A stretch of 64,000 nucleotides of DNA, from assembly GCF_029338395.1 (NCBI RefSeq), contig NZ_CP119810.1, positions 124,001-188,000 on the forward strand, written 5' to 3'. Below the pieces are notes generated by a model. The model did not search any database. It saw nothing but the letters and a program-made list of their open reading frames with translations, and was not told where the DNA came from. Position 1 is the stretch's first letter. Every line of letters begins with the position of its first letter. Positions 31,499 through 34,226 of this stretch are shown one piece after another. The translations under genes and the position numbers were made by a program. Source of the stretch: Halorussus caseinilyticus (lineage in GTDB: Archaea > Halobacteriota > Halobacteria > Halobacteriales > Haladaptataceae).

Positions 31499-31747
31499 AT
31501 GAGCGAACGACTGGAGCGACGGGAGCAGGACGCCGACCCCGTGAACTGGAAGCGAACGGGCGGCGGCGTCGAGATTTATGACGAGACGAACTCCGACGCG
31601 TGGGTGCGCATGGAGTTCGTCAGCGGTATCGACCCGGACAAACGCCTCTTCGGTATCTGTGACGACTGCGGTCTGGTCACGCCCCAACGGGCGTTACCCT
31701 CCGACAGCATGGCCTGTGGCAACTGCGGGTCGGAGTTCGGCGACTAA
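31499..31747 (+). CDS. Small zinc-ribbon protein (82 residues)
   Basis: The product has a basic-acidic N-terminus, the segment DAWVRMEFVSGIDPDKRLFGICDDCG and two CxxC knuckles (CDDC and CGNC), so it should bind one zinc. A TATA-like TTTTATGA at 31464-31471 lies about 30 bases before the ATG, giving a leaderless message. It is the last gene with normal high-G+C codon use before the AT-rich island. Confidence 0.78.
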   Translation: MSERLERREQDADPVNWKRTGGGVEIYDETNSDAWVRMEFVSGIDPDKRLFGICDDCGLVTPQRALPSDSMACGNCGSEFGD

Positions 31748-31902
31748 TAGAATAGTAGTCGGTACGCAGGTATAAATGACTTTTAATACTGTACTAGTGT
31801 CACAACAGAAAGAATTATAATACCTCTCTATCGTTTATTGAACAAACTGAGTATAGTGAGTAATCCGTTCAGAACTAACTGATTGGGACCATTCTTAGGG
31901 AT

Positions 31903-33048
31903 ATGGATATTAAAAAGGAAGAAATTGAGGGGAAGGATGTTCGCGGTGTTGTCCGTGAACTCATTGATGAAGTCACCAAAACAGAAAAAGAAGCAAAAGA
32001 AAAAAGTACACGAGGTGGAAAGTCCCCCGATTTAAAACTCTACGTAGTTGATACTTCTGAAGAAGTTCTCGGCCAATTAAACGATCTCGCTACCTCAATA
32101 ATTGACTCGGACTCTTCAAAGAAAGCAGCAAAGAATTTCTTTAATAGTCATATCATAAGCGAATATAAAATAAGCTCTGATATTTGGTGGGTGGAAATAA
32201 AAACTCCGAGATATGAACGTACTGATGATTTCATCTTTGTAAAAAGGGACGATTCAATCTGGATTCTGACTACTGAGTTAAAAGATTGGGCAGAGGATAC
32301 AGTCGAAAACATAATCAAATATATGCCTCAGATGGAACGGGTATACCTAACATCTGATGACTTAGAGGATGTTATGGACTCTATAATTGATTCTGAAGTT
32401 TCCGGTTTTACTGCGAAATATCGCTCACAGCATCAAGAAAGAGCCGCTACATTACGGTTTCACGGTGCTGAACCAGATGATATGAAAAAGGCAGAAGAAC
32501 ACTTTCAGGCAACCCCTACACGAATTGAATTTAACCAACGTAATAGCCCCTCTACAGCAATACAAGGTTCTGGTTCTAACGATGGGATACTTACTGTTGA
32601 AAGTGTCCGGTTAGGTTCCGAAGGGAAGGCTACAGACACGCTACTTGACACTTCAAAAGATTTCATCCTTGTTGATAGCAAGAGATACGAGGTCAATACT
32701 GATTCTAAAGTAAGGTTTTTTGAATCCGGATTCAGTATAGACGAATTTACTAGTATAGAACTTTATGACCCTGAACGAGAATCAGCAGAAAACTTACGTG
32801 AAGAAATAAAATCTGAAATACTCTCGAAGAACCAATACCAATATGGTCGTTGGGGAGAAAATACGTTTTTCATACATGATAAGAACCATGGAGAAATTTT
32901 CGAACTAGGAATCGAATCTCCCGAATTAGTTCTCCATGCCAGAGAAGCAACTACAGCACTTAGCCTTCGAAGTTTCTGTAAGAGCGTACTTGACGAGTTT
33001 GATTCAACATATTCCATTCGAAAGAAAGAAACGGAGGTGACTCTCTAA
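31903..33048 (+). CDS. Unknown protein of AT-rich two-gene island, gene 1
   Basis: The 381-residue product has base and codon use unlike its surroundings (many AAA, ATA, TTA and GAA codons), a sign of recent transfer. It starts with a charged, probably coiled region (residues 1-40), then an alpha/beta part (LKLYVVDTSEEVLGQLNDLA), a strand-rich segment (SDIWWVEIKTPRYERTDDFIFVK; SIWILTTELKDWAED) and a second beta-rich region from about residue 230. There is no signal peptide or membrane helix. I do not recognise a family or catalytic motif. Its stop overlaps the start of the nuclease-like gene (TAATG), so the two act together; a sensor or regulatory partner role is a guess. Confidence 0.88.
   Translation: MDIKKEEIEGKDVRGVVRELIDEVTKTEKEAKEKSTRGGKSPDLKLYVVDTSEEVLGQLNDLATSIIDSDSSKKAAKNFFNSHIISEYKISSDIWWVEIKTPRYERTDDFIFVKRDDSIWILTTELKDWAEDTVENIIKYMPQMERVYLTSDDLEDVMDSIIDSEVSGFTAKYRSQHQERAATLRFHGAEPDDMKKAEEHFQATPTRIEFNQRNSPSTAIQGSGSNDGILTVESVRLGSEGKATDTLLDTSKDFILVDSKRYEVNTDSKVRFFESGFSIDEFTSIELYDPERESAENLREEIKSEILSKNQYQYGRWGENTFFIHDKNHGEIFELGIESPELVLHAREATTALSLRSFCKSVLDEFDSTYSIRKKETEVTL
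33033..33040 (+). promoter_or_regulatory. Strong Shine-Dalgarno for the nuclease-like gene
   Basis: GGAGGTGA, a full match to the anti-Shine-Dalgarno sequence, lies seven bases before the ATG at 33048 and inside the end of gene 1. This fixes the start of gene 2 and shows that it is translated from a bicistronic message, unlike the leaderless genes around. Confidence 0.8.
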
Positions 33049-33947
33049 TGAGTCGGCAGTGGGAGAGACAAAAAACTGAGATTGACTCATATAATACGTT
33101 CTTATCCGCATACCATTCTCGTACAAGTTATCATGGATTTTCTGAAATGGATTATGTCGTTTCCAATTATTTCCCGAAGTTATCTGATCCGCATACTGGC
33201 GCTGATGCCGAACCCGATTTCGTTCTATACAATGGTAAGAATGTCATACTCGTCGAAATTAAGCAAGGAAATAATATCTCTTCACGACATATTAAGCAGA
33301 TGGAGAAAAATAACGACGTTAGCATCGAATACGCAGAGGAATTCCTGAAAGATTCTCAGATTCAACGGAGATTTGGGCTCAGCGGCGATGTTTTTTCGGT
33401 CGAAACTTGTATTGTTTATGATGGTATGGGCGAGGAATACGTAGAAAAGTGCCGGAAAAAATGGCCAGATTGTCGTGAAAAACTGGAAGAGATGGAAAAC
33501 GAGACCGCTATCCTTGGTCAAAGTAGGGATTCGAAATTACGAATTCTGACTGGCGAATTTGATTCTCCTGACTTACAACATTGGCTTGAATACGGGATTG
33601 ATTTACCTCCCACACCACGGACTACTATATCTCTGACGGATGGACTCGAAATGGAAAGTATTGCAGTATCACTCTGTAATATCTGGGGTCAGAAAGCGGT
33701 ATCCGGTTCTGTACTTGTCTCAGTACAGGAAATCCGAAGCCACTTTGACCACCGTGAACTCAAACCGGGTGATGTCACTGATGCATTTAAGTATTTAACC
33801 GATGTCAATGCGTGTGAGGCACGAGGAAACCGTACATACGAATTCCGAAAAGAGCATCTCGGGCAAATACTCGATATTGAACGAATCATAGCGGATGAAG
33901 ACGACGATAGAGATGGTACTCAAAGAGGATTGGACGATTTTAACTAG
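33048..33947 (+). CDS. Putative PD-(D/E)XK nuclease of the AT-rich island, gene 2
   Basis: The 299-residue product contains Pro56-Asp57 (EPDFVLYNGKNV) followed on the next strand by Glu70-Ile71-Lys72 (VILVEIKQGN), which is the D...ExK core of PD-(D/E)XK nucleases; the motif spacing is normal. The C-terminal third (SVQEIRSHFDHRELKPGDVTDAFKYL, to about residue 275) looks like a winged helix ending in a beta hairpin (ACEARGNRTYEF), suggesting DNA binding. Codon use is AT-rich as in gene 1. Nuclease activity is inferred from the motif alone. Such nucleases beside an unknown partner are common in phage-defence or restriction modules, but no known system could be named. Confidence 0.85.
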   Translation: MSRQWERQKTEIDSYNTFLSAYHSRTSYHGFSEMDYVVSNYFPKLSDPHTGADAEPDFVLYNGKNVILVEIKQGNNISSRHIKQMEKNNDVSIEYAEEFLKDSQIQRRFGLSGDVFSVETCIVYDGMGEEYVEKCRKKWPDCREKLEEMENETAILGQSRDSKLRILTGEFDSPDLQHWLEYGIDLPPTPRTTISLTDGLEMESIAVSLCNIWGQKAVSGSVLVSVQEIRSHFDHRELKPGDVTDAFKYLTDVNACEARGNRTYEFRKEHLGQILDIERIIADEDDDRDGTQRGLDDFN

Positions 33948-33973
33948 TTTTGGAAATTTACTGGCTTTTGTGT

Positions 33974-34081
33974 CTATGACAGTCGGTCCGCGAACGACTC
34001 GAACTCCCCGCCTTCCGAAACCGACTCCAACTCGTCCAGCGCGTCGGCGTCCTCGTCGCGGTTCTGTTCGAGCAGGTCCAC
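33974..34081 (-). pseudogene. C-terminal remnant of a haloarchaeal gene at the island border
   Basis: On the minus strand a high-G+C, acidic reading frame (VDLLEQNRDEDADALDEL, ending SFADRLS and TAG at 33974) is followed upstream only by non-coding sequence and a stop. Its composition is that of a native gene tail, unlike the island beside it. It may be what is left of a gene cut by the insertion or a deletion. It is short, so chance coding cannot be excluded. The rest of 34082-34226 shows nothing clear. Confidence 0.35.
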
Positions 34082-34226
34082 CCTCCTACCCCGCACACGT
34101 CCTTAGCTGTGGTTGAGGGTTCGAGACCCGGCGGACCCCCGTCGGCGGTCCCCCGTCGCCTCGTCGTCGCTCCGCTGTCGCGCCGCCGACGCCACCGTTT
34201 TCACGGAGGCCCCCGTCTGGGGTGTC

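Follow-up and report, generated by a model that had tools for sequence, protein, structure and literature searches.

An AT-rich insertion carrying two coupled genes

The window, i.e. the whole 64,000-nucleotide stretch of Halorussus caseinilyticus DNA analysed (G000:C2:124001-188000, on a 427 kb contig), contains a block of approximately 2.2 kb with a GC content of 40% within haloarchaeal DNA of 64% GC. The block consists of ORF1 (38.8% GC; 31% at third codon positions, GC3) and ORF2 (42.3% GC; 38% GC3), while the 4 kb on each side have about 64% GC. An AT-rich two-gene block in high-G+C DNA had been described here in the initial annotation, and both its coordinates and its anatomy were right (Table 1). 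Across loci, the gene pair is mostly lower in GC than its flanks, whatever the host.

Table 1 Features of the inserted block (window coordinates)
Feature	Position	Strand	Basis
Inserted block, whole	31745..33980	.	Without counterpart in the other same-genus genomes examined
AGTCGGT, left copy (possible target-site duplication)	31757..31763	+	Edge comparison with sister genomes
ORF1, 381 aa, with predicted RdgC/Iml3/RexA-like fold; putative DNA-binding sensor/clamp	31903..33048	+	Model, structure search
ORF1 C-terminal domain, residues ~256-377	32668..33033	+	Homologue search; also a separate haloarchaeal gene of 135-160 aa
Shine-Dalgarno motif GGAGGTGA before ORF2	33033..33040	+	Sequence
TAATG stop/start overlap joining ORF1 to ORF2	33046..33050	+	Sequence
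ORF2, 299 aa, predicted nuclease of PD-(D/E)XK type with a winged helix at the C-terminus	33048..33947	+	Structure model, Foldseek
ORF2 catalytic motif D57 / E70-x-K72 / conserved Q84	33216..33299	+	Residue conservation
ORF2 predicted winged-helix region, residues 202-287	33651..33908	+	Model, GntR-type matches
AGTCGGT, right copy	33981..33987	+	Present in the empty site of sister genomes

An 82-aa gene immediately upstream of the block (window position 31744) is kept in 16 of 18 same-genus genomes, that of H. caseinilyticus counted, and the block is missing at the equivalent spot in all the others that retain this gene. In the closest sister genomes the upstream gene is followed by about 77 bp and then by the sequence equivalent to window position 33980; the window has 2235 bp there. 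Since these 2235 bp are absent between the same flanks in the sister genomes, the block is an insertion and its edges are real. Neither ORF2 nor a full-length ORF1 was found in any other genome of the genus (18 genomes, including that of H. caseinilyticus). The AGTCGGT heptamer lies close to both edges, the empty site predicting the right copy only and not the left; as a target-site duplication the pair is suggestive only, because an equally long match occurs in 3.5% of shuffles. An inverted-repeat search revealed no long inverted repeats at the block ends. Identification of the block as a transposon or integrative element was rejected, as it comprises two genes, with neither a recombinase of its own nor terminal inverted repeats. 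The converging downstream gene (33974-34100), which we take to be YciF/DUF892-like, is reduced to its last ~40 codons beside the insertion, compared to ~170 aa in relatives.

The Shine-Dalgarno motif sits seven bases 5' of ORF2. This motif and the TAATG overlap had been read as bacterial-style signals; both are present, but they do not serve as evidence of a bacterial character, since Shine-Dalgarno-like motifs are seen again in some relatives of the pair. A Shine-Dalgarno motif ahead of internal operon genes is normal for haloarchaea, and the argument from this motif to a bacterial origin was dropped on these grounds.

Predicted folds of ORF1 and ORF2

ORF2 has no family match in Pfam or NCBIfam and its sequence matches no PDB chain. 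Its AlphaFold model, made with 18 homologues (mean pLDDT 87, pTM 0.83), shows a helix (residues 4-23), three strands (37-41, 58-61 and 65-73), a second helix (79-89) and a further strand (117-125), which is the order of the alpha-beta-beta-beta-alpha-beta core of the PD-(D/E)XK superfamily; a winged helix follows within residues 202-287. The D57...E70-x-K72 motif pointed out earlier is present in full (codons at 33216-33218, 33255-33257 and 33261-33263, respectively), its three residues are placed in the model as the PD-(D/E)XK fold requires, and Q84 (33297-33299) is conserved too. Foldseek retrieved mostly PD-(D/E)XK enzymes (the R2 endonuclease domain, hantavirus endonuclease, R.BspD6I, Bax1, McrC and Hjc) and, for the tail, GntR winged helices, all with weak E-values (best 0.0015). 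Judged by the model and these matches, ORF2 is a predicted nuclease of PD-(D/E)XK fold with a winged-helix end, and the core as well as the winged-helix-like terminus expected from the sequence are thus borne out. ORF2 shares the core fold and the D...E-x-K signature with the R2 endonuclease domain, R.BspD6I, Bax1, McrC and Hjc, but differs from them as a family of its own with a winged-helix tail.

ORF1 belongs to no named family in the Pfam, NCBIfam or PADLOC sequence libraries, and a comparison of its sequence with PDB chains gave chance internalin matches only. The best of five AlphaFold runs reached a pLDDT of 81.7 and a pTM of 0.83, the other four being poorer (next 68.9). The closest PDB structures to this model are yeast Iml3 (PDB code: 4it3; E 3e-5) and Escherichia coli RdgC (PDB code: 2owl; E 8e-5), each with a probability of 1.0, and among viral proteins (BFVD) phage RdgC proteins come first (E 6e-7 and 3e-6), followed at lower rank by TBP-type proteins and, weakly, by the N-domain of RnlA. 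The structural TM-scores are low (~0.2-0.35). According to this uncertain model, ORF1 would carry the tandem-domain fold of RdgC, RexA and Iml3; the likeness is a claim of fold only, because profile comparison by hhalign shows no sequence homology to RdgC (PF04381; probability 0.3-0.4%) or to RexA (0.3%, against one lambda RexA sequence). The initial annotation, which recognised no family in gene 1, therefore holds for the sequence libraries and not for the predicted structure. The hhalign value for RdgC and the lack of a Pfam match led us to reject membership of ORF1 in the RdgC family. ORF1 has the fold in common with RdgC and with Iml3/Chl4 (CENP-L/N), but is set apart by its unrelatedness to RdgC in sequence, by an extra C-terminal domain and by its nuclease partner. 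The ~120 C-terminal residues are encoded alone in about 50 other haloarchaeal genomes. One such separate gene is found in H. caseinilyticus itself (G000:C2:241267-241599).

Distribution and genomic neighbourhood of the pair

The pair is patchily distributed, occurring in 21 of the 384 genomes of the order and in 13 genera. ORF1 and ORF2 are adjacent in all 21, the same genomes that hold full-length ORF1, and a second, independent scan of GTDB contigs yielded 17 loci, 17 of which have both genes. The tight coupling of a partner without a known family to a nuclease, on which the original suspicion of a defence module rested, is thus general among the relatives, and ORF2 homologues are not scattered without gene 1. 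Pairwise protein distances of ORF1 and ORF2 correlate with r = 0.97 and dN/dS is low, in line with purifying selection; by these measures the two proteins co-evolve. No full-length ORF1 was found outside the order in a phylum-wide sample, and among the genomes and contigs searched the pair was found only in Haloarchaea. A match in a public-genome contig labelled Rhizobium sp. S152 was considered as a sign of spread to bacteria and rejected: with its acidic proteins and halovirus-like neighbourhood, the contig appears to be haloarchaeal contamination. Decayed copies were seen as well. A remnant of ORF2 is found on Halobacterium salinarum pNRC100 (L078:3984-4306; also in pNRC200), with an ISH8 transposase on one side and the gas vesicle cluster on the other, therefore the lineage of the model strain NRC-1 formerly carried the module. 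A 168-codon C-terminal fragment of ORF1 (G240:C8:4312-4686), located on a 6 kb contig and not accompanied by ORF2, looks decayed.

For the neighbourhood survey, the closest three genes to the left and to the right were collected at 25 loci (146 proteins), with 146 proteins from the same genomes as a control. At E values up to 1e-10, the neighbours matched 175 PADLOC families and the controls 85, figures that serve as a guide only, given that the families overlap. The matches were more varied among the neighbours of the pair, some defence genes being present among the controls too, and the Pfam annotation of the neighbours leans likewise to defence. When large neighbours were inspected singly, 8 of 9 matched defence proteins (they were picked by size, which favours such proteins). 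Among the types encountered are restriction enzymes of Type IIG and Type I (HsdR), Hma/DUF499, DpdJ/BREX-type and HKD-SNF2 helicases, SMC-like Lamassu/Ppl proteins, a methyltransferase and Mokosh matches. The relatives hence often adjoin defence genes, and the enrichment in defence islands that the initial annotation proposed to look for is supported to this extent; the copy in the window itself has no obvious defence neighbours.

Neither ORF1 nor ORF2 has a significant full-length match to a component of a named PADLOC system. ORF2 gave weak matches to the candidates PDC-S01 (E 1.5e-4) and PDC-M15A (E 0.008), which are confined to ~40-60 residues at the nuclease motif, and ORF1 has no PADLOC counterpart, so that the pair does not coincide with an already named system. 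A literature search, with preprints and most subscription papers outside its reach, found neither a description of the pair nor an experiment on any of its members.

The presence of restriction-modification genes close to several relatives, together with a PD-(D/E)XK nuclease that has a winged helix and no companion methylase, would suit a methylation-dependent (Type IV-like) restriction in which ORF1 reads modified DNA and ORF2 cleaves it. The module indeed contains no cognate methyltransferase, the two genes alone being conserved together in active loci, but it also lacks an NTPase motor and a known reader of modified bases, and we know of no RdgC-fold protein that reads them; we regard this explanation as highly improbable. 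The neighbours also include MCM, integrase and resolvase genes and several copies of the pair reside on megaplasmids, which, along with the resemblance of ORF1 to a protein carried by many phages, would fit a plasmid- or virus-borne accessory of recombination or replication: ORF1 would shape recombination like phage RdgC and ORF2 would resolve or trim DNA, to the benefit of the element and not of the host. Such a role is unlikely, given that ORF1 has no match in phage records, that neither protein has one in viral contigs, and that the neighbours tilt to defence genes.

Apparent exchange of the effector and a proposed mechanism

D57, E70, K72 and Q84 are all intact in 15 of the 21 genomes, that of the window included, and all four are lost in the other six, with no intermediates. 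The dead ORF2 is not decaying: between two such loci (L051 and L052) dN is 0.036 and dS 0.69, from which the catalytically dead protein is judged to be retained under purifying selection. A third gene, coding for ~280 aa on the same strand and located 75-130 bp upstream, is present in 6 of 6 dead-nuclease loci and in 0 of 22 active loci (Fisher p 3e-6, kinship ignored). Its product combines a conserved soluble domain with an N-terminal part containing one to three hydrophobic segments (about two transmembrane helices). On the ORF2 tree, the six dead-nuclease members group as one clade (92/84); the ORF1 tree requires two changes. The six loci probably represent a single clade, and the swap may therefore be one event. 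The combination of a dead nuclease with a membrane protein is an apparent exchange of effectors upon a common sensor, a pattern that is hard to fit with DNA processing by a recombination or replication accessory.

The two-gene overlap, the strict pairing and the mobile AT-rich insert would also agree with a toxin-antitoxin or addiction pair, in which ORF1 would restrain a toxic ORF2 (or a toxic membrane protein) and the element would thereby be stabilised; the weak structural match of the RnlA toxin N-domain to ORF1 points the same way. Both proteins are, however, large (381 and 299 aa), and the purifying selection on the dead nuclease implies that ORF2 is more than a toxin. We consider this explanation, which overlaps with the abortive-infection version of defence, quite unlikely.

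We propose, with a probability of roughly 60%, that the pair is an undescribed, horizontally moving haloarchaeal anti-virus or anti-plasmid module in which ORF1 would bind foreign or abnormal DNA and ORF2 would cut, either directly or by abortive infection. This reading is based on the proximity of the relatives to known defence genes and on the exchange of the nuclease for a membrane protein in one branch. The nuclease fold and motif, the fold of ORF1 with its RexA precedents, the strict pairing, the correlated distances with purifying selection, the patchy spread and the empty site are counted in its favour as well. Counted against it are the single good ORF1 model in five with its low TM-scores and lack of homology to RdgC or RexA, the absence of defence neighbours at the window copy, the defence genes among the controls and the possibly single origin of the swap. 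RdgC-like proteins take part in phage recombination too, which also weighs against defence.

A DNA sensor coupled to an effector is the likely scheme because ORF1 is predicted to be a protein of RdgC/Iml3/RexA fold. From the features computed here (folds, catalytic-residue pattern, pairing, mobility and third-gene pattern) we infer sensing, activation, cutting and protection as follows. ORF1, as a dimerising and mostly non-specific DNA binder, would detect foreign DNA, probably in the form of replication or recombination intermediates, and would then recruit or activate ORF2. The nuclease, anchored on DNA through its winged helix, would cleave the DNA of the invader or else, in an abortive infection, the chromosome of the host. 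In the sister branch the dead nuclease would be kept and the effector role taken over by the membrane protein encoded upstream.

The closest parallel is RexAB (of lambda, and RexABpp of Pseudomonas putida), a two-gene module with a DNA-binding protein. Lambda RexA, which binds DNA and acts in phage exclusion, has the RdgC fold by crystal structure (PMC11077077), the fold predicted here for ORF1, and the membrane protein of the sister branch parallels RexB, itself a membrane protein. Such a partner fits a RexA-type sensor, because the RexA-type protein of P. putida sets off a membrane effector (PMC12894663); for RexABpp, damage to the membrane is reported when the sensor is overexpressed. In contrast to RexAB, the window pair is archaeal, lies outside a prophage immunity region, shows no detectable sequence homology and has a nuclease as partner, a membrane protein occurring in the dead-nuclease branch only; without RexA homology and a RexB-type partner in the window, membership in RexAB was rejected. 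By analogy, the pair would be a Rex-type sensor-effector module in operation, but it stands outside RexAB and RdgC by sequence and is no named PADLOC system.

More tentatively, and at somewhat less than even odds, the relatives may constitute an archaeal immune family in which a sensor of RdgC/RexA/CENP-L fold works with interchangeable effectors, either the PD-(D/E)XK nuclease or a membrane protein accompanied by a dead, DNA-binding nuclease remnant. If so, the Rex principle would extend to archaea, where few native defence modules are understood, with an effector swap caught in sequence, and the fold of Rex exclusion, of bacterial RdgC and of the eukaryotic kinetochore proteins CENP-L/N would be linked to archaeal immunity. 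The two branches would amount to a natural experiment, with the same sensor family combined with a live nuclease or with a dead nuclease and a membrane protein.

Strong matches to the third gene were found only in dead-nuclease genomes and as a fused copy in G027. The latter (L224:3010-4548), which is without ORF1 and ORF2, is joined to a segment that looks, by eye, like the C-terminal portion of Orc1/Cdc6, and its contig also has a ParA-like gene. In genome G167, the membrane-protein gene (L051:11230-13659) is split by a 434-aa ORF resembling a transposase.
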